Positions 24,430-34,223 of a stretch of 64,000 nt of DNA are shown here, one piece after another (positions within the stretch are counted from its first letter, which is position 1; each line of letters opens with the position of its first letter). The stretch comes from Methanooceanicella nereidis (GTDB lineage: Archaea > Halobacteriota > Methanocellia > Methanocellales > Methanocellaceae). The stretch covers positions 186,001-250,000 of the forward strand of contig NZ_PGCK01000004.1 of the NCBI RefSeq assembly GCF_021023085.1, written 5' to 3'. The notes beneath the pieces were generated by a model. That model saw only the letters and a list, made by a program, of their open reading frames with translations. It searched no databases and was not told the DNA's origin. The position numbers and the translations under genes were made by a program.

Positions 24430-25113
24430 ATGGAATCCGTAGTATCGATAAGCAATGTCCGGAAATCATATCTTATGGGCAGGCATGAGCTTGAGGTGTT
24501 GAAGGGTGTTGACCTGAACATCGAAAGAGGAGAGTTCGTGAGCATCATGGGACCTTCAGGAAGCGGTAAAAGCACGCTCATGAACCTGATCGGTTTACTG
24601 GACAGGCCCAGCTCCGGCGAGATAGCGATCAATAGTAAGGTCATTAACGGTTTGAACGACGTCGAGCTGTCACTGTTGAGGGGTAAGGAGATCGGGTTCA
24701 TATTCCAGTCCTTTAACCTTGTCTCAAGGATGACGGCGCTCAAGAACGTGGAACTGCCCATGATATTCCAGAACAAGGACAGGAACGAGAGAACGAATGT
24801 CGCGACCAAAATATTGAAGGAGGTCGGCCTCGGCGATCGTATGACCCATCGCCCCAGTGAGCTGTCAGGCGGCCAGAGGCAGCGTGTGGCTATCGCCCGC
24901 GCCCTGGTGAACGATCCTGCAATATTGCTGGCGGATGAGCCCACCGGCAACCTTGACACCAAGACAGGTGAGGAGATCATGCAGCTTTTCATCGATCTCA
25001 ACAAGAAAGGCAGGACCGTCGTAATGGTCACGCACGATCCCGACGTAGCCTCGTTCAGTAAAAGGATAGTGAGGCTTAAGGACGGAGAGGTAATAGGAGA
25101 CGAAAGGAACTGA
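24430..25113 (+). CDS. ABC transporter ATPase (LolD/MacB type)
   Basis: The 227-residue ATPase has the Walker A GPSGSGKST, signature LSGGQRQRVAIARAL, Walker B LLADEPTGNLD and switch His in MVTHDPD. It groups with the MacB/LolD class that powers FtsX-type permeases. A permease of this class is encoded two genes downstream, so it is the ATPase of that system. It probably drives mechanotransmission or export and not import. The gene is in an operon with PadR, RDD and the secreted protein, spaced by 16-45 bp. Confidence 0.92.
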   Translation: MESVVSISNVRKSYLMGRHELEVLKGVDLNIERGEFVSIMGPSGSGKSTLMNLIGLLDRPSSGEIAINSKVINGLNDVELSLLRGKEIGFIFQSFNLVSRMTALKNVELPMIFQNKDRNERTNVATKILKEVGLGDRMTHRPSELSGGQRQRVAIARALVNDPAILLADEPTGNLDTKTGEEIMQLFIDLNKKGRTVVMVTHDPDVASFSKRIVRLKDGEVIGDERN

Positions 25114-25157
25114 GATCACATCAATATCATAATAATTAAAATGAGGGAGAAATAATA

Positions 25158-26141
25158 ATGAAGTTCAGTTTAAAGTGTTTAAGCATCTTTGTATTATTAG
25201 CAGTTTTATTATCAGTCCCCGCATTCGCGGGTTCGGTCAAGCCTACGCTAGTAGTATTAGGCGATCCGGCGATAAATCCTGGAACTCTTATGGCGGGAGA
25301 TACCGGAGAAATTACCGTGACGATAACAAATTCATTGAAGATCACGACAGCGGGTGAGACTAAGACCACCACGGATACGTATAATTATGGTCCCGGAACT
25401 TCCAATGGTTTAACGACGCCGTCGCATACCCAGACGACGACGACCACAAGCTCGGAGCTACCGGAATCCATACGCCTTGACAAGGTAACGCTATCCTCCG
25501 ACGGACCGGTTCGCGTAGTCTCGCAGTCTTTCGAGAACGTAGGCTACCTGGGGGCCGGCGACATGGCAAAGTTCACCTTCCTCGTCAGAGCCGACAGCAA
25601 TGCACAGGACGGCGTATATTACCTCAAGTTCAAGGTCACTACGGGCGATGAGGCAGTGTTCTTGAATTATCCGGTCCGTGTCGAGGTGGATAATTCGGGT
25701 GTCAAGATGGTTTTGAGCGAGTCTCCGAAGGCTTTCACCACGGTCAAGAAGAGCGTGGTGTTCGACGTGTTCAACCTCAGGTCTAATGGTATCAAGTCTG
25801 TGAGCGTTGTCCCTGTGGGTGACGAGTTCGCGTTCAAGCCTGTCCAGGAGTACATTATCGGGGATATTGGCGCCGGCGAGATGTACACCGTGCAGTTCGA
25901 CGTGTCAAGCAAGAACTCCTCCTACAACGGAAACCCGCAGTTCAAGGTAGTATACAAGAACGGTAACAACTGGCACGAGTCAGAGCCGATGACAGTATAC
26001 GCAGACTCAGTAGATACGCAGAGCAGCGCCTCAAACGCGAATGACCAGACACTGTTATACGTGCTCGGGTTCGTGGGCGTCGCTGCCGTATTATTAGGTC
26101 TTGTATACTTCTTTATGAGGGGTAAGAGGGCGAAGAAGTGA
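25158..26141 (+). CDS. Secreted, C-terminally anchored surface protein of the ABC cluster
   Basis: The 327-residue protein has a signal peptide (FSLKCLSIFVLLAVLLSVPAF region), two beta-rich domains of CARDB/NEW3 type, a Thr-rich stretch (TTTTTTSS-like near residue 95) and a C-terminal membrane helix (LLYVLGFVGVAAVLLGLVYFF) with a basic tail. It probably sits outside the cell with its C-terminus in the membrane. Similar archaeal proteins accompany MacB-like permeases. GAGGGAG precedes its start. It overlaps the permease gene by 4 bp (GTGA), so they are translated together. Confidence 0.8.
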   Translation: MKFSLKCLSIFVLLAVLLSVPAFAGSVKPTLVVLGDPAINPGTLMAGDTGEITVTITNSLKITTAGETKTTTDTYNYGPGTSNGLTTPSHTQTTTTTSSELPESIRLDKVTLSSDGPVRVVSQSFENVGYLGAGDMAKFTFLVRADSNAQDGVYYLKFKVTTGDEAVFLNYPVRVEVDNSGVKMVLSESPKAFTTVKKSVVFDVFNLRSNGIKSVSVVPVGDEFAFKPVQEYIIGDIGAGEMYTVQFDVSSKNSSYNGNPQFKVVYKNGNNWHESEPMTVYADSVDTQSSASNANDQTLLYVLGFVGVAAVLLGLVYFFMRGKRAKK

Positions 26142-27364
26142 AAGCGCTGGACATACTGGGCTATGCGTTCGCGGATTTCGCGAGCAACAAGTTCAAGACG
26201 ATGATGTCCAGCCTGGGCATCATCATAGGTGTCATGGCGATAGTGGTAATGCTTACCTTAGGCGACGGCCTGTACAGCGGAGTAAGCGACCAGTTCGGCG
26301 ATCTTCAGCTCGACACGATGTTCATCCTGCCTATCGACACGAGCGTCCAGCAGGGAACCATGAGCTTCTCGGTGACTATGGCCGAGAAGCCGAAGCCGCC
26401 CGCAAAGTTTACGGATAGGGACGTTAACCTGCTCCGAACAACGGAAGGTGTCAAGGAAGTACAGCCCAAGATATCCGTTAGCGGTAACGTGACCTATGGA
26501 GCGGACAGCCGAAGAGTGACCGTACAGGGAATAATACCGCAGTACGAGGACAAGATGGCCGAGAGTGTCGATAAGGGCAGGTTCCTGTCGCCATCGGATA
26601 AAAATTCCGTCATCCTTGGAAGCAAAGTGGCTAACGGCACATTCGGCAAGGTCATACGGCCGGGATCATACATCACGATATCTAACTTCTATACAGGCGA
26701 GTCGCAGACGTATACTGTAGCCGGAGTATTGAAAGAGATGAACGGCTCCATACTCACTGGCGACCCGAACAGCTATATCTACATGACCACCGAGGGCATC
26801 AAAGGGTTCAGCGACCAGGATACCTACACCGAAATATGGGTGCAGGCAGACAGCGTAGAGACTGCCACAGAGGTTGGCGACAGGGTCAGTGAGACGCTGA
26901 AGAAGTTCCACAGGAACGAAGGCTATACAGTGCTGACGCAAAAAATGTTCGCCAGTGCAATAAACCAGATCTTTGACCTTATAAAATACACTCTGGCAGG
27001 CATCGGCGCCGTATCGCTTCTCGTAGGCGGCATAGGCATCATGAACGTCATGATGCTCACAGTTAAGGAGCGTGTGAAGGAGATAGGCCTTATGAAGGCT
27101 GTCGGCGCGACCACGACTGACGTCAGGCTGATATTCCTGACCGAGTCGGCACTCCTCGGGTTCATCAGCGGCCTGATAGGCGTCGGGATAGCGGTCCTTG
27201 TGGCCGGCATAGTCGGATCGCTCGCCCAGCTGCCCATGGACGCTTCCGCGCAGAACATCCTCTTAGGCATCGCTTTCGGGCTCTTTACGACCACGATAGC
27301 GGGCGTATACCCTGCGAACCAGGCATCTAAACTAGATCCGATAGAGGCGCTCAGGACCGAATAG
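26138..27364 (+). CDS. MacB/FtsX-type ABC permease
   Basis: The 408-residue permease has a membrane helix at the N-terminus (KFKTMMSSLGIIIGVMAIVVMLTL), a large extracellular domain (about residues 40-275), and three further helices in the C-terminal FtsX domain (GIGAVSLLVGGIGIMNVMMLTVKERVKEIG). That is the canonical MacB membrane topology. The GTG start overlaps the stop of the surface-protein gene. Together with the ATPase upstream it should form a mechanotransducing transporter whose substrate is unknown. Confidence 0.9.
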   Translation: MKALDILGYAFADFASNKFKTMMSSLGIIIGVMAIVVMLTLGDGLYSGVSDQFGDLQLDTMFILPIDTSVQQGTMSFSVTMAEKPKPPAKFTDRDVNLLRTTEGVKEVQPKISVSGNVTYGADSRRVTVQGIIPQYEDKMAESVDKGRFLSPSDKNSVILGSKVANGTFGKVIRPGSYITISNFYTGESQTYTVAGVLKEMNGSILTGDPNSYIYMTTEGIKGFSDQDTYTEIWVQADSVETATEVGDRVSETLKKFHRNEGYTVLTQKMFASAINQIFDLIKYTLAGIGAVSLLVGGIGIMNVMMLTVKERVKEIGLMKAVGATTTDVRLIFLTESALLGFISGLIGVGIAVLVAGIVGSLAQLPMDASAQNILLGIAFGLFTTTIAGVYPANQASKLDPIEALRTE

Positions 27365-27410
27365 GTCCGGGCTCCCTCACTTATTTTTAAGAAAAGTATA
27401 TTTCACATTA

Positions 27411-27436
27411 ATGGTAGTGTATTAATGAACTACCAT
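27411..27436. promoter_or_regulatory. Inverted repeat with 10-nt gap, site 1 (TrmB self-site)
   Basis: ATGGTAGT (27411-27418) and ACTACCAT (27429-27436) are perfect complements separated by 10 nt. The right arm overlaps the TrmB start codon at 27435, so binding there would repress the gene. Two more copies of the same layout follow at 29261 and 31827. Confidence 0.7.
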
Positions 27437-28238
27437 GAATAACCTATCGACCAGTCTTATAGAGTCTCTTAAAACCCTGGGACTGACCGAATATGAGGCT
27501 AAAGTGTACTCTGCCCTCGTATTATTCGACAGGACCGAGGTCAAGCAGGTATACGAGTACCTTGACGCCCCCAAGCCGAGCGTATACCAGAGCCTTAAGA
27601 CGCTTATGGATAAAGGGCTGGTTCAGGTAGTTAACGTCAAGCCGGCCATATACAGGGCGACCCCGCCGAAGATAGCTCTTAAGCATATGATGGAGATACA
27701 TAAAAATGCGGAAGAGACGGCCCTGGAAGAGCTGGAAGAGCTCGAGAGGATGAGCGTACAGACGGAAACGCCTGACGTGCTCTGGACACTTTATGGCGAC
27801 GAAAGCATCGAGCACAGCATAGAAGAGCTCTTCACTAAAGCGAATATGTCGGTGAAAGCGATCCTCCCTGACACTCACCTTCACTATCTGGAACTATTAA
27901 GGGATAAGGACATCCCGGCGGACGTTATCGTATTCAGGGAGGATATGACCATCCCGGAAAAGTACGGCCTGAAACATGCGAAAGTCTATAATGCCGTCGA
28001 CATCGACCTGACAGACCTGGCGCCCTTTGCGAAGTATATTTCAAATCTGCCGATACCCATGGAAAATTACAAGAAATTTTTAATGATACTGATCGATAGC
28101 GAAGAGTTCATCTACATTCCGCCTATGCCCGCTACAGTGAGGTCGGGGATAACGTCAAGGAACCCCTTCATCATCGGGCTCATCAGCCTTGTATTCCAGG
28201 CATTGCTTGACCGAACTCCCATCATATACCCGAAATAA
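27435..28238 (+). CDS. TrmB-family transcriptional regulator
   Basis: The 267-residue protein has an N-terminal winged helix (LGLTEYEAKVYSALV, then APKPSVYQSLKTLMDKGLV) typical of TrmB, a coiled-coil linker (LEELEELERM), and a C-terminal phospholipase D-like sensor domain (about residues 115-260). TrmB proteins respond to sugars or metabolites and may repress or activate. An inverted repeat covers its own start codon. Matching repeats stand upstream of DUF2193 and of the 31.9-kb gene cluster, which suggests these are its targets. There is a long 3' gap before the TetR gene. Confidence 0.88.
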   Translation: MNNLSTSLIESLKTLGLTEYEAKVYSALVLFDRTEVKQVYEYLDAPKPSVYQSLKTLMDKGLVQVVNVKPAIYRATPPKIALKHMMEIHKNAEETALEELEELERMSVQTETPDVLWTLYGDESIEHSIEELFTKANMSVKAILPDTHLHYLELLRDKDIPADVIVFREDMTIPEKYGLKHAKVYNAVDIDLTDLAPFAKYISNLPIPMENYKKFLMILIDSEEFIYIPPMPATVRSGITSRNPFIIGLISLVFQALLDRTPIIYPK

Positions 28239-28390
28239 GATTCTTTGGAATATGCCCGACGCTATTTTTCGAGACCGGATACAGTAGAGAGCATGGTCAA
28301 TCAAACATTATACAGCTTGCCGATTTTTTAAACGATAGCTTCCTTCCCGGGATGATTTCCGGGGATAAACTTTTACATGATATGATAATA

Positions 28391-28492
28391 TGTCAATGAC
28401 AGTATGTCAGTGAAAAAGTATGACTGACAACACATCAGTGACACTGTGTCGGTAAAAATTTGTGACTGATAATGTGTCAATGACAGTATGTC
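28391..28492. repeat. Clustered TGTCA/TGACA operator-like repeats
   Basis: Eighteen nucleotides, TGTCAATGACAGTATGTC, occur at 28391-28408 and again at 28475-28492. Related words TGACTGACA, CATCAGTGACA and TGTCGGTAA fill the space between. TGACTGACA also occurs upstream of the TetR gene near 29178. The array sits in the roughly 310-bp spacer between the 3' ends of the TrmB and TetR genes, and no gene was seen there. Confidence 0.6.
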
Positions 28493-28547
28493 GGAAGGAT
28501 ACTATAAAAGGGCCTGATAATAAAAAAAATCGGCTTAAGTATACGTC

Positions 28548-29159
28548 TTAATTCATAAGGCTAAGGCTGCATTTTCTGGCGTTCAAGGCCTTTTTGATCA
28601 GGTTCTCAGCCACCCACATTTTCCTGTAGCGCTCTTCCCAGTCTTTAGAGCGCTTTGCCGAATAGAATGAGTAATATAGCATCACTACCAGCATTTCTGC
28701 CGTCTCCATGGGAAAATCTACCTCAAAAAGCCCTTCTTTCATGCCTTGCTCCACCACTTTCGCCAGCAAAGGTATGATAAGGGCATTAAAATTTCTTTCA
28801 AATTTTTCATGTCTGGCAATACTGCTTTCAAAAATATATTTTTCAAGTGCATCGCCATTATTGCGTAAATTGAAGGAAAGATGGATGATCTCCTGAAGCT
28901 TATCCATCGCGTTGATGTCATTATTATCCGCCACGTTTTTCAGGGCGGACCCGTATCGTTCAAGATACCTGTATATTACGGCTTCAAGTATGTCATCCTT
29001 CGATCGGAAATAATAGTAAAAAGTACCCTGAGCCAGCCCGATTTTCTTGATTATGTCACTTGCCGACGTGTTCTCATACCCTTTTTCGAGGAATAGCTCC
29101 TCTGCGGCGTTAATATAATCCTCCCTTCTTTCTTCAGGATCCTTAGATATCCTTCCCAT
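28548..29159 (-). CDS. TetR/AcrR-family transcriptional regulator
   Basis: The 203-residue protein has the TetR helix-turn-helix (EERREDYINAAEELFLEKGYENTSASDIIKKIGLAQGTFYYYF, split over residues 8-50). The signature GLAQGTFYYYFRSKDDIL marks the recognition helix. The C-terminal ligand domain is helical and not assignable to a ligand. TetR proteins usually repress a neighbouring exporter. Its promoter region contains a TGACTGACA word, shared with the array downstream of the gene. The start is ATG at 29159; DUF2193 is divergent. Confidence 0.9.
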   Translation of the reverse strand: MGRISKDPEERREDYINAAEELFLEKGYENTSASDIIKKIGLAQGTFYYYFRSKDDILEAVIYRYLERYGSALKNVADNNDINAMDKLQEIIHLSFNLRNNGDALEKYIFESSIARHEKFERNFNALIIPLLAKVVEQGMKEGLFEVDFPMETAEMLVVMLYYSFYSAKRSKDWEERYRKMWVAENLIKKALNARKCSLSLMN

Positions 29160-29260
29160 GCTTCTCCTTTGTATAGTGACTGACAGATTATCAATTAAAC
29201 GTATATCATATAATCATATATAATTATTATTATAAAATTAATGTATAATAGTGTACTATA

Positions 29261-29286
29261 ATGGTAGTTTTTTTATTAACTACTCT
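29261..29286. promoter_or_regulatory. Inverted repeat with 10-nt gap, site 2
   Basis: ATGGTAGT (29261-29268), a 10-nt T-rich gap, then ACTACTCT (29279-29286) repeat the arrangement seen over the TrmB start codon, with six of eight right-arm bases matching. It stands in the TetR/DUF2193 divergent spacer, 123 bp upstream of the DUF2193 start. Confidence 0.6.
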
Positions 29287-29408
29287 GGAAAACTATTTTA
29301 TGTTTTATAAAATATATGCTTAATTATAAAGCCCCTGACCTGCGAGCGGGCATGTAATAATGTCGGATATTCAGTGCGGGATGACGGGGCTTGAGAAGGT
29401 GATCGTAC

Positions 29409-30932
29409 ATGGCATCTCAGAAGGCAAAAACGCAAAAGGTTAAAAAAACCGTGAATGACCAGGACATCTACAGCAAGATGGCGGACGAGGCGATAAATGC
29501 CCAGAACGCGGACCTGAAAGCCATAAATGCCAACAGGGGCGGAAAATTCGAGATATCACAGGCAAAGCCATACATAGACGCTGTCAATAAGATGAAGCCA
29601 GCGGGGGTGCAGAGCAAGGAAGTTTTCGACCTCCACGTCCGGTCGGTGAACAGCCACTATGAGATCCTTAAGTCCATGGCTAAGACTATCAGGCCCGAGG
29701 ACGACCCGATGATAGAGCACTACCAGACACCTGCCATTCTGGAGATCCTCTATGAGGAAGACCCCAAATTCAGGAAGTCAGTAGACGTTTTCATTAATGC
29801 GATCGGAAAATCTGAGGCGTTAATAGGAAGGGAATCTGTCAGAAGGTACGGGGGATTTTACGGCCCCACATGCGTCGTTGACTTCGCGTTCGTGCCGGGA
29901 AGCACGGCCAACGTAGTCAACAGGATACTCCAGACGGTCGATATTCCCGTAGAGCATAAGAGAGCCATACTTTCGGCAAAATCATGGGGAATGGACACAT
30001 CCTACGGCATCGGCGGGAAGTTCCAGTCCTCCATAGAGGAGGGCAAGACCGTCGCGAATGCGGTCAAAGATGAGATAAAGACGCTGAAGATGGTCTATGA
30101 CAGCCCTATGGAAGCTCAGGGGAAACTGATGGACGAGGCAAGGCACTCGTCATTTGACGTCAGGAAGTACATGAAGCAATACATGGAAAGGATGAAGCCG
30201 GCGGTGAAAGCTGCCATGGACGCAGGAGTTTTCTATGGCAACATCGTGACAGTTCCGGCTTATTGTGTGGGCGACATCGGACATCACATATCGCAGTCCA
30301 TGTATAACATGACAAAAGATGACATGGTAATGGAGATCATAAACGCGGTCTCGAAAGTAATGGAGAACACGTTAAAAGGGGCTAAAGGCAAGTTCAAGAA
30401 CGAGTACTCGGTGCTCTCGGTCGCCACCGGGGCGACGGCGGCAGCCGCGACTAAGATATTGTGGATGGACGGGTTCACCACCATGATGGTCATCGACCTC
30501 CTGACCAAGAGATTCCACAACCTGGTGCTGACCAACCCCACAAGAAGCCCGGCGGCGGAGCTGCATAATGTCGACTTCATGGACATGATCGAGAGAGGAG
30601 AGCGCATACTTGACCATGAGCCCAGGGGCTCGGGCTGCACTATACAGGGAATACCTGTAGACCTGAGCCCTATCCAAAAGAACGAGGTGGTCATGAACCC
30701 GCAGAGGTACACTTACCCGGGCTGCGGGATCACCGTGAGATTCTCTGCGCTGATGAGGCTCTCGGACTTCCCATGCCTGCTGACCAGCGAGCCTGTGACT
30801 GCGACACTTATGACGAACATCATAGCGCTGCATAAGGACCAGCCTTTCTCGCCCGCAAGGGTTTGCAAGTTTTGTTCAGCAAATTATATCGACTACAAAT
30901 GCGCATATTGTAACTGGAAAGAGGCCGTTTGA
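29409..30932 (+). CDS. DUF2193 protein (methanogen-associated, function unknown)
   Basis: The 507-residue protein has the DUF2193 layout, and I recall the family as methanogen-associated with no assigned reaction. It is mostly helical and soluble, without signal peptide. The C-terminus is a small zinc-ribbon-like motif, C-x2-C-x8-C-x2-C (CKFC then CAYC, about residues 486-501). Other visible motifs are GGFYGPTCVVDFAFVPGS and YPGCGITVRFSAL. A strong ribosome binding site (AAGGTGAT) precedes the ATG at 29409. The aquaporin gene follows 26 bp later. An inverted repeat in its promoter matches the TrmB self-site. Confidence 0.8.
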   Translation: MASQKAKTQKVKKTVNDQDIYSKMADEAINAQNADLKAINANRGGKFEISQAKPYIDAVNKMKPAGVQSKEVFDLHVRSVNSHYEILKSMAKTIRPEDDPMIEHYQTPAILEILYEEDPKFRKSVDVFINAIGKSEALIGRESVRRYGGFYGPTCVVDFAFVPGSTANVVNRILQTVDIPVEHKRAILSAKSWGMDTSYGIGGKFQSSIEEGKTVANAVKDEIKTLKMVYDSPMEAQGKLMDEARHSSFDVRKYMKQYMERMKPAVKAAMDAGVFYGNIVTVPAYCVGDIGHHISQSMYNMTKDDMVMEIINAVSKVMENTLKGAKGKFKNEYSVLSVATGATAAAATKILWMDGFTTMMVIDLLTKRFHNLVLTNPTRSPAAELHNVDFMDMIERGERILDHEPRGSGCTIQGIPVDLSPIQKNEVVMNPQRYTYPGCGITVRFSALMRLSDFPCLLTSEPVTATLMTNIIALHKDQPFSPARVCKFCSANYIDYKCAYCNWKEAV

Positions 30933-30958
30933 GGCTTCAAGTTATTTTTGGTGATATT

Positions 30959-31705
30959 ATGGGGGAAATTAGTCTTTTAAAACGCTCACTAGCTGAGCTT
31001 ATAGGCACATTTACGCTCGTGTTCCTGGGAACGGGAGCCGTCGTCACTGCCGCCCTGTTAATGGATGGCTGGATACCGCTGCTGGAAAATACCTTCAATA
31101 TAGGCTTTGACATATCGTCCTGGCTTGCAATAGGCCTGACCTTTGGCCTTGCTATCGCTGTGATGGCATATGTTTTCGGCCACATTTCGGGAACTCACAT
31201 CAACCCGGCCGTAACGATAGCGCTCTGGGCCACGAAAAGATTCCCGACCAATGACGCCATAGCATACATAGTCGCCCAGCTTATAGGTGCTGCACTGGCA
31301 TCTTTTACCGTGTACTTCATATGGGGCACAAGGTCGCTGGATACCGGGCTTGGCGCTACGGCCATGTTTGACGGGGTCACATACCTGCAGGCTATTGTCG
31401 CAGAGACAGTGTGCACGTTCTTCCTGATGCTGGCCGTGATCGGGGTCGCAGTAGACAAAAGGGCTCCGGCAGGATGGGCGGGCCTTATCATAGGCTTGAC
31501 CGTAGCTATCAGCATAGTGGCAATAGGTAACATATCAGGCGGATCGCTTAACCCTGCCCGTACTTTCGGGCCCTATCTTGCGGATTTCCTGCTTGGCGGA
31601 CAGGATCTCTGGTGGCAATTCCCGATATATGCGATAGGACCGATATTGGGTGCGTTGATCGCCGCGTTCCTGTATGACTATATTGCAGGATCGAGCGCAA
31701 AATAA
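30959..31705 (+). CDS. Aquaporin/MIP-family channel
   Basis: The 248-residue channel has six membrane segments and both NPA boxes (HINPAVTIAL and SLNPARTFGP). The Arg after the second NPA is the selectivity-filter residue. It may pass water, glycerol or another small neutral solute. The start at 30959 with a preceding GGTGAT is preferred to an upstream in-frame start that lies inside DUF2193. The pairing with DUF2193 in one operon is notable, because it suggests a small diffusible substrate or product. A strong terminator follows. Confidence 0.93.
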   Translation: MGEISLLKRSLAELIGTFTLVFLGTGAVVTAALLMDGWIPLLENTFNIGFDISSWLAIGLTFGLAIAVMAYVFGHISGTHINPAVTIALWATKRFPTNDAIAYIVAQLIGAALASFTVYFIWGTRSLDTGLGATAMFDGVTYLQAIVAETVCTFFLMLAVIGVAVDKRAPAGWAGLIIGLTVAISIVAIGNISGGSLNPARTFGPYLADFLLGGQDLWWQFPIYAIGPILGALIAAFLYDYIAGSSAK

Positions 31706-31765
31706 TGGCCTGTAATGATCGAAAGATCAGGTCATTTGATTTTTTAATTTTTTAAATTTTTTTAT
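31704..31765 (+). terminator. Terminator of the DUF2193-aquaporin operon
   Basis: AATGGCCTG and CAGGTCATT-like arms with GATC-GAAA-GATC at the tip form a hairpin just after the stop codon. A long run of T-rich sequence follows to about 31765. Confidence 0.65.
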
Positions 31766-31826
31766 TTAATAGCTATCACTTACTCTTTAAGCCCTGCTTA
31801 CAGTAAACTTTATTATCCTTGGGAAT

Positions 31827-31852
31827 TTAGTAGTATTTTATAAAACTACTAA
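31827..31852. promoter_or_regulatory. Inverted repeat with 10-nt gap, site 3
   Basis: TTAGTAGT (31827-31834) and ACTACTAA (31845-31852) are perfect complements with a 10-nt gap. A TATA-like ATATAAAG lies 16-20 nt downstream, and the start codon of the 31.9-kb gene 33 nt downstream. The position upstream of the TATA box would suit activation. Confidence 0.65.
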
Positions 31853-31884: not shown

Positions 31885-32328
31885 ATGAGCTTGAACCCGT
31901 TCGTATCGGCCGTAATAGCATTTATATACGCATTAAAGGGAAGGCTGCATTTCCCAAAAGAAAGGATAGGCGATACTGTCGTAATGGATGATGGTGTAAG
32001 GTTCACTATATTCAGGCAGGTAATAGTCGACCCTGAAAAAAGCCGATCCCGATCTCCGGGAGCTACCTTTATCGTAAGGTTCCATGTCGCCGGCATGAAG
32101 CCTGAACAAAATAAGAAGTTTTCCTGGATACCGATGTTCTTCATTTTAGGGCTTCCCGGTTTCAGGTCGAAGCTATGGACGCTGGACGAGAGCACGGGCG
32201 ACTTTCAGGGAATATATGAATGGGACACGGTGAAGGATGCGGAGAATTATGCGGGCTCGTTCGCAATGAGATTCATGACGGGGAGGTCGACCCCCGGTTC
32301 TGTGAGCTACAGGATCATTCCAAAGTGA
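31885..32328 (+). CDS. Unknown protein with possible alpha/beta-barrel fold
   Basis: The 147-residue protein is not recognised. The C-terminal half (LDESTGDFQGIYEWDTVKDAENYAGSF, split by positions) has the wording of dimeric alpha-beta barrel monooxygenase-like or EthD-like proteins. The N-terminus contains one hydrophobic helix (FVSAVIAFIYAL). It lacks a signal peptide cleavage motif. It lies 10 bp before an ABC ATPase gene and in the same operon, so it may be an accessory of that exporter. One of the three inverted repeats stands just upstream. Confidence 0.6.
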   Translation: MSLNPFVSAVIAFIYALKGRLHFPKERIGDTVVMDDGVRFTIFRQVIVDPEKSRSRSPGATFIVRFHVAGMKPEQNKKFSWIPMFFILGLPGFRSKLWTLDESTGDFQGIYEWDTVKDAENYAGSFAMRFMTGRSTPGSVSYRIIPK

Positions 32329-32338
32329 GGGGATAGAG

Positions 32339-33118
32339 ATGTTAAGGCAGGAGCTGAAAACAAAAATATCGGATACAAAAAATGATCAAGGGTACATCAT
32401 AGATTGTTCGGGACTTAGTATGAAATTCGGGAATATAACGGCACTGAACGGCATCGACCTGAAGATCGAGTACGGAGAGAACTACGGCCTTCTGGGCCCT
32501 AACGGAGCTGGTAAGACAACGCTGATAAGGATACTGTGCGGGCTGCTAAAGCCCACTTCGGGCTCCGCCGTAGTGCTCGGGCGGAACATGCCGGACCGGG
32601 CCAATAACTATCATATCGGGTACATGACGCAGATGGACGCGCTCTATAATGACCTCAGCATCCGAGAAAATATCAGGTTTTTCGCCTCGCTGTACGGACT
32701 TAAAGGAAAGAAGAGGGAAGACAGGATCGATGAGGTGCTGGACATAATAAGGCTTAAGGACAGGCAGGACAGCATCGTCGCCACTCTTTCCGGAGGGATG
32801 AGGAAGCGGGCGTCAATGGCATGCGTGCTGGTGCACAGGCCAAAGCTGCTATTCCTTGACGAGCCCACAGTGGGCGTCGACCCGAAGCTGAGATGCGAGC
32901 TATGGAAGTATTTCCATGAGCTTAACGACGAGGGAGTTACGCTGATAGTCTCCACCCATATCATGGACGAGGCCGAACACTGCAACAGGCTTGCGTTCAT
33001 AAGCGACGGCAGGAAGCTCATCGAAGGCACTCCCGCGGAATTGAAAGAATACACCAGATGCGATAACCTTGAAAAATCATTCCTGTATTTCTCGGAGGGA
33101 GAGCATGGACGCGCTTAG
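32339..33118 (+). CDS. ABC-2 type transporter ATPase
   Basis: The 259-residue ATPase has Walker A GPNGAGKTT, signature SGGMRKRASMACVL, Walker B LLFLDEPTVGVDP and the switch His in VSTHIMDEAEHC. It belongs to the DrrA/CcmA group that exports drugs, lipids or polysaccharides with ABC-2 permeases. A ribosome binding site (AGGGGAT) precedes the start. Its 3' end overlaps the permease start by 14 bp. It is the second gene of the unit that begins with the unknown 147-residue protein. Confidence 0.92.
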   Translation: MLRQELKTKISDTKNDQGYIIDCSGLSMKFGNITALNGIDLKIEYGENYGLLGPNGAGKTTLIRILCGLLKPTSGSAVVLGRNMPDRANNYHIGYMTQMDALYNDLSIRENIRFFASLYGLKGKKREDRIDEVLDIIRLKDRQDSIVATLSGGMRKRASMACVLVHRPKLLFLDEPTVGVDPKLRCELWKYFHELNDEGVTLIVSTHIMDEAEHCNRLAFISDGRKLIEGTPAELKEYTRCDNLEKSFLYFSEGEHGRA

Positions 33119-34223
33119 GATAATCTCTCTGGCAGTAAGGATCGTCACTCAGTGCGTCAGGGACAGAAGGACGATGGCGCTGATAATAATTGTGCCGTCG
33201 CTGGTGATGGCTCTCCTGGGATACTTCTTTGCCACTGATGTCACAGGCGATATCGTGCTGGGCATCGTGGACGAGGACCAGGGCATGGGAGGCATCAAGC
33301 TGTCTACCATGATAGCGGACGAGCTGAGAACTTATAGTAACATCACTGTCGTAAGTGTCGATGCAGCCGACGCGGACCGCCTCATAAAGGACAAAGAGAT
33401 CGACGGTGCCGTGTTTTTCAGTAAGGATTTCACATCTGACACGATGGTCTCTAAAAAGCTGGACATGGATATACTGACGGAGGGAGTCGATCAGGCTAGG
33501 TCGATGGCGATCTCCATGTCAGTTCACAACGCGACGATAAGCACCATAGCCAAAGTGACGCAGAAGGGCGAGGAAGGGCTTCAGGTGAACGTCAACTCTG
33601 CCGTGAAGTATGCGGACGGATACAGCATGCTGGACCTGTTCGCCCCGTATCTTTTAGGGCTGATCGCGTTCTTCTTCGTGTTCATGTTCACGGGAGTGAC
33701 ATTCCTTCGCGAAAGGTCTTTCGGGACGTTTGAAAGGCTGCTGGTATCGCCGATAACCCGGTCGGAGATCATTCTCGGATATATGCTGGGCTTTAGCGTA
33801 TTCGCCTTCATACAGTCGATAATAATACTCCTGTTCGCCATATTCGTGCTGAACGTGAAGATAGCAGGGGACGTATACTCTGTCATCGCTCTGCAGCTAT
33901 TACTTACCATAGTCGGTGTGAACCTGGGCATACTATGCTCGTCCTTCGCAAAGAACGAGCTGCAGGCTGTACAGTTCATTCCCCTGTTCATCATACCGCA
34001 GGTTTTCCTTGACGGCATGTTCTGGCCGATATCGACTCTGCCGGAATACTTGCAGGTGTTCTCTTACATCATGCCGCTGACATACGCGAACGATGCGCTG
34101 CAGAACATTATGGTAAGAGGCTACAGTCTTGGAGACGTATGGCTGGACATAGCCGTACTGATAGTGATGGCCCTGGTAGTGGTCGTGCTGTCGACGCTGA
34201 GCCTGAATAAACAGTTACAATAG
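33105..34223 (+). CDS. ABC-2 type transporter permease
   Basis: The 372-residue permease has one N-terminal membrane helix (TMALIIIVPSLVMALLGYFF), a soluble outer domain (about residues 40-190) and five more helices in the C-terminal half. It contains ERSFGTFERLLVSPITRSEIILGYMLG, split over positions, and PLTYANDAL. This is the DrrB/YhhJ topology. GGAGAG precedes the ATG at 33105, which overlaps the ATPase end, so translation is coupled. Substrate unknown. Confidence 0.9.
   Translation: MDALRIISLAVRIVTQCVRDRRTMALIIIVPSLVMALLGYFFATDVTGDIVLGIVDEDQGMGGIKLSTMIADELRTYSNITVVSVDAADADRLIKDKEIDGAVFFSKDFTSDTMVSKKLDMDILTEGVDQARSMAISMSVHNATISTIAKVTQKGEEGLQVNVNSAVKYADGYSMLDLFAPYLLGLIAFFFVFMFTGVTFLRERSFGTFERLLVSPITRSEIILGYMLGFSVFAFIQSIIILLFAIFVLNVKIAGDVYSVIALQLLLTIVGVNLGILCSSFAKNELQAVQFIPLFIIPQVFLDGMFWPISTLPEYLQVFSYIMPLTYANDALQNIMVRGYSLGDVWLDIAVLIVMALVVVVLSTLSLNKQLQ

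Follow-up and report, generated by a model that had tools for sequence, protein, structure and literature searches.

In the 64-kb stretch of DNA analyzed here (hereafter, the window), a gene for a TrmB-family regulator is followed by a tetR gene, a DUF2193-aquaporin gene pair and an operon encoding a 147-aa protein and an ABC-2 exporter, with one copy of an inverted repeat at each of 3 promoter regions (Table 1). Genes were assigned using Pfam and NCBIfam profiles. Searches of 60 genomes returned the 147-aa protein from the source genome but from none of 59 relatives. Directly upstream of trmB, positions 24430-27364 carry a MacB-type exporter (ATPase, secreted 327-aa protein, and permease); in genome G055 and related genomes, regulators of the same TrmB clade (see below) are divergent from a gene for a CARDB-type secreted protein, behind which G055 has MacB genes. 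Between trmB and tetR, whose 3' ends converge, lies an array of TGTCA(A/G)TGAC-like elements (28391-28495, period of approximately 14 bp), which is possibly a TetR operator array, and a similar element, TGACTGACAG, is present in the tetR promoter (29178-29187).

Table 1. Genes and predicted regulatory elements of the trmB locus (positions in the window).
Feature	Position	Strand	Evidence and remarks
TATA-like box of trmB, AGTATATT	27395..27402	+	11 bp before operator core; predicted by simple TATA scoring
Putative operator 1, TGGTAGT-N10-ACTACCA	27412..27435	.	trmB start, final base is the A of ATG; exact match
TrmB-family regulator, 267 aa	27435..28238	+	HTH and PLD-like sensor domain; PF01978, 74.9 bits
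TetR-family regulator	28548..29159	-	Divergent from DUF2193 gene; PF00440
Putative operator 2, TGGTAGT-N10-ACTACTC	29262..29285	.	Between tetR and DUF2193 genes; core exact
DUF2193 protein, 507 aa	29409..30932	+	PF09959, 852 bits
MIP-family channel (aquaporin/aquaglyceroporin type)	30962..31705	+	PF00230, TIGR00861
TATA-like box, CTTTATTA	31808..31815	+	14 bp before operator 3; predicted
Putative operator 3, TAGTAGT-N10-ACTACTA	31828..31851	.	Precedes exporter operon; exact match
147-aa protein	31885..32328	+	Weak, sub-threshold YdhR-like match
ABC exporter ATPase, DrrA-like	32339..33118	+	PF00005; TIGR01188 below cut-off
ABC-2 exporter permease	33105..34223	+	PF12698, PF01061

All three inverted repeats of the original prediction are present where it had placed them, with the 10-nt gap, and share the exact core GTAGT-N10-ACTAC (27414-27433, 29264-29283, and 31830-31849). 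Copies 1 and 3 have perfect 8-bp arms; in operator 2, the outer bases of the right arm deviate (ACTACTCT). Across 100 dinucleotide shuffles of the window, exact cores average 0.03 per shuffle, and no shuffle attains the 3 observed. A longer, 26-bp pattern shows only weak enrichment when up to 3 mismatches are tolerated (4 observed versus 1.5 expected), indicating that the signal resides in the exact core together with its fixed spacing. A perfect 12-bp palindrome, ATAGTGTACTAT, lies at 29248-29259, 2 bases before operator 2, and is a possible site of another regulator.

A genome-wide search of the kind that had been proposed as a check recovered 7 exact cores in the 3.19-Mb genome, all 7 in promoter regions: the 3 in the window, 2 before the gene for the TrmB paralogue C1:279119, 1 near a SAM synthetase gene, and 1 near a PAPS-reductase-like gene. 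By contrast, 0.6 intergenic and 2.5 coding matches are expected from base composition (that of the window), against 7 and 0 observed. The SAM synthetase and PAPS-reductase-like genes were rejected as firm members of the regulon, their sites not being conserved in 3 related genomes (G001-G003); with 2 left-over intergenic sites versus 0.6 expected, they are not distinguishable from chance. The TrmB proteins of the source genome (G000) fall into 2 half-site types, GTAGT (the focal protein and C1:279119) versus GTTGT (C1:281961 and C2:14468), and the half-site shared by the former two makes cross-binding possible. The operator-like site of the C5:124000 region (L005:1501-1680) is flanked by 2 strong TATA-like boxes in face-to-face orientation, and a very short hydrophobic ORF (MGLTRISLWLIMMILAFFA) may be present on its far side.

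The focal TrmB protein passes the curated cut-off of the TrmB HTH profile (25.6 bits) by a wide margin, and this domain is the only one found by Pfam. The sugar-binding domain PF11495 has no Pfam match in the protein, and its scores are far below the equivalog cut-offs for sugar-sensing TrmB/TrmBL1 (NF040851, 42.9 of 600 bits; NF047390, 49.2 of 650 bits). In a Foldseek search, the AlphaFold model (pLDDT 84, pTM 0.56) matched TrmBL2/TrmB, with the sensor half resembling phospholipase-D-type domains. The protein, its orthologues and paralogues, and full-length relatives at greater distance make up a set of 13, which forms one clade in the tree relative to 3 outgroup TrmBs (support 100/100). The clade has a KP-x-x-Y recognition helix, which the outgroup TrmBs lack. 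The tyrosine of this helix, Y51, is invariant in the 13 proteins and the residue after it is of the Q, E, D, or K type, not always D; the conserved recognition-helix tyrosine of the TrmB family is Y50 in Pyrococcus furiosus (PMC4158304).

Conservation of the repeats in related genomes, the lack of which was to count against the original prediction, was assessed by comparing the source genome with the other members of its archaeal family, G001, G002, and G003 (Methanocella sp. PtaU1.Bin125), in which the TrmB orthologues are 61%, 62%, and 50% identical to the focal protein, respectively. The palindrome is present at the own promoter of all 3 orthologues, and its final base coincides with the A of the trmB start codon ATG in G000, G001, and G002. 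In G002 and G003, trmB is divergent from a homologous ABC-2 exporter, with 2 operators in between, 1 per gene; in the window, trmB and the exporter are separated by tetR and the DUF2193-MIP pair and each retains one operator. G001 has an operator also approximately 80 bp before a DUF2193-MIP operon elsewhere in the genome. DUF2193 is absent from G002 and G003, and in the 2 genomes of the family that encode it, the operator precedes it. A further G001 operator is located behind trmB, before a gene for an Rph-like PEP-utilising enzyme. The enzymes adjoining TrmB in G001 and G002 score under the cut-off for rifamycin phosphotransferase (NF041857; 942 and 933 bits versus 999) and both pass the wider PRK06241.1-3 PEP-synthase-like subfamily. 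G001 additionally contains a TrmB-clade gene that has lost the HTH half (L245:1501-2162), which keeps 2 GTWGT-N10-ACWAC operators and is divergent from a hydrolase and an ABC exporter gene; it may encode an orphan sensor domain or be in decay.

The association extends to the entire clade. Perfect (10/10) GTWGT-N10-ACWAC sites are located upstream of 11 of the 13 clade genes, compared to a shuffle mean of 0.015, and matches of at least 9/10 upstream of all 13, whereas gaps of 8, 9, 11, and 12 nt yielded no perfect sites in these promoters. An out-of-sample search of 394 genomes uncovered 10 new loci (in 9 new genomes plus G022:C7), each with a perfect site; an additional locus that nearly duplicates one of the in-sample loci shows a 9/10 match. 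Scanning of genome contigs gave no match with the single TrmB protein and mostly distant TrmBs with an alignment. The broader TrmBs have no GTNGT-N10-ACNAC operator. Exporters (ABC-2, MFS/EmrB, CARDB-MacB, or RND) adjoin the clade genes in nearly all readable loci, with the regulator adjacent to or divergent from the exporter, as is characteristic of one-component exporter repressors; no exporter was recognised beside the clade member G022:C9. Helical phasing of tandem operators was considered and rejected, spacings of 52, 62, 63, 63, and 74 bp fitting whole turns and those of 69 and 78 bp not. Collectively, the promoter sequences delineate a TrmB clade of methanogenic archaea with predicted GTWGT-N10-ACWAC operators, nearly all examined members of which are encoded beside exporters.

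The DUF2193 protein matches its Pfam profile far above the cut-off of 25 bits (profile positions 2-498 of 498). In 10 of the 10 main-type loci examined (L066-L075), an MIP channel gene follows on the same strand. In other archaea, three divergent paralogues (L076, L077, and L078; 33-35% identity) directly follow a gene for an MtrH-type methyltransferase, a neighbour that hints at methyl transfer. DUF2193 as an MtaB-like methyltransferase was rejected based on a negative profile comparison; no solved structural relative was found, and the single-sequence AlphaFold model (pLDDT 33) provided no usable fold. A proteomic study reported increased levels of a DUF2193 protein in Methanococcus voltae during growth on pyrite and suggested a metal site (PMC9431491). 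DUF2193 genes of other lineages have no GTNGT-N10-ACNAC site in front of them, which makes the link to TrmB specific to this archaeal family. Within the family, the DUF2193-aquaporin pair is probably a further target of TrmB.

The promoter geometry, predicted with a crude TATA matrix, bears on the direction of control. The end of a TATA-like box lies 10-14 bp ahead of the operator core in most of the regulator and exporter promoters, which would place the start, approximately 27 bp downstream, inside the predicted operator. Characterised members of the TrmB family repress from operators downstream of the TATA box and activate from upstream ones (PMC4158304). Taken together, autorepression and repression of the exporter appear most likely, as had been proposed for the first repeat, which indeed reaches the trmB start codon. 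The third repeat had been described as standing just upstream of a TATA-like box; in fact, the useful box lies upstream of the repeat, and the TATA-like string downstream is too near the ATG at 31885 to serve operator 3. In both genomes with DUF2193, a good TATA box, by the same matrix, lies downstream of the operator, with which activation would fit as well as repression.

The GTAGT-N10-ACTAC sites are thus very probably operators of the TrmB protein of the window, through which it would control its own gene, the exporter, and the DUF2193-aquaporin pair. We infer that TrmB binds each copy of the palindrome as a dimer and, by occupying the transcription start shortly after the TATA box, would repress both its own gene and the operon of the ABC-2 exporter. 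From operator 2, it would control the DUF2193-aquaporin operon, and perhaps tetR, by either repression or activation. A small molecule, probably toxic or a waste product, may be bound by the PLD-like sensor domain, whereupon TrmB would be released and export switched on, a presumed role in detoxification.

Alternatively, the palindromes could be operators of the neighbouring TetR, controlling the whole block. Palindrome binding is usual for TetR proteins and one of the sites lies in the tetR-DUF2193 divergent promoter, but across genomes the palindrome accompanies TrmB genes rather than TetR genes, and the TrmB-adjacent TetR of G001 resembles that of the window in the HTH only, making this explanation very unlikely. 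Slightly less credible still is that the repeats act as RNA (hairpins, attenuators, or terminators) and not as sites for a protein: a short hairpin is possible at each repeat and is somewhat stabler than in shuffles (z of about -2 to -2.8), but at -6 to -10 kcal/mol these hairpins are weak, and their stem cores show fixed bases instead of covariation. The sites moreover occur around start points and within divergent promoters, as well as in pairs, with no Rfam match or terminator call at any of them. Chance repeats in AT-rich intergenic DNA, for which the weak enrichment of the 26-bp pattern could speak, are contradicted by the exact-core statistics, conservation in independent genomes, and out-of-sample recovery, leaving this possibility practically negligible.

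The sites could also be shared by at least 2 TrmB paralogues, the focal protein and C1:279119, in a cross-wired regulon including the SAM synthetase and PAPS-reductase-like genes. The GTAGT half-sites in the operators of both paralogues and the location of the 2 remaining genomic cores upstream of these 2 genes are consistent with such an arrangement; however, given the missing conservation and non-significant number of the latter sites, as well as the GTTGT half-sites of the other paralogues, which suggest that targets are kept separate, we consider it unlikely. More doubtful again is an extended scheme in which TrmB would sense a small neutral, perhaps methylated, toxic compound, with efflux coupled to an aquaporin-fed DUF2193 enzyme and to SAM and sulfur supply, that is, the same SAM synthetase and PAPS-reductase-like genes; DUF2193 would then be a methyl-transfer enzyme, consistent with its paralogue behind the MtrH-type gene. 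The best reading of the sequence data is a clade of one-component TrmB regulators that would control efflux through an operator of their own and, in this genome, also the DUF2193-aquaporin pair.

TrmB proteins are known mainly as regulators of sugar or central metabolism. The present regulator shares with TrmB, TrmBL1, and Tgr of Thermococcales and VNG1451C of Halobacterium the HTH family, the recognition-helix tyrosine, and a palindromic operator (PMC4158304). Those proteins likewise repress when an operator downstream of the TATA box overlaps the start, as is predicted here, but they have a sugar-binding domain, whereas this clade lacks it and is encoded beside exporters; their operators, TACTN3AGTA, TATCACN5GTGATA, and TACTN7-8GAGTA, also differ from GTWGT-N10-ACWAC (PMC4158304). 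The best structural match, TrmBL2 (PDB 5box and 5bpd), is of similar length and also without the sugar domain, but is chromatin-like and binds DNA in coding as well as intergenic regions, unlike the focal TrmB with its few, specific palindromes. Autoregulated one-component repressors beside ABC exporters, as proposed here, are exemplified by LmrR-LmrCD of Lactococcus (PMC4534193) and MDR1 of Archaeoglobus fulgidus, which acts over the start site (PMC4158304), although both regulators belong to families other than TrmB and LmrR, unlike the focal TrmB, has known drug ligands. TFB-RF1 of Pyrococcus furiosus also regulates a putative drug-type ABC exporter and its own region, but is an activator recruiting TFB and not a TrmB protein (PMC5937170). 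A literature search, with subscription journals mostly outside its coverage, returned no description of this TrmB clade or operator.

Accordingly, the proposed TrmB regulon is well supported, with the operator tracking the clade through genomes and recurring before DUF2193-MIP in a second genome, whereas the supposedly undescribed small-molecule handling system is better viewed as a switch for exporter control, a type of system known in general, whose new elements are a TrmB clade using an operator of its own and the DUF2193-aquaporin link. For methanogens, the result is a TrmB clade without the sugar domain and with a testable operator, GTWGT-N10-ACWAC. The defined operator and the exporter link of nearly every member make the targets predictable from sequence. 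DUF2193, which is well conserved in methanogens, has no assigned function, and travels with an aquaporin, would thereby gain a regulatory context.
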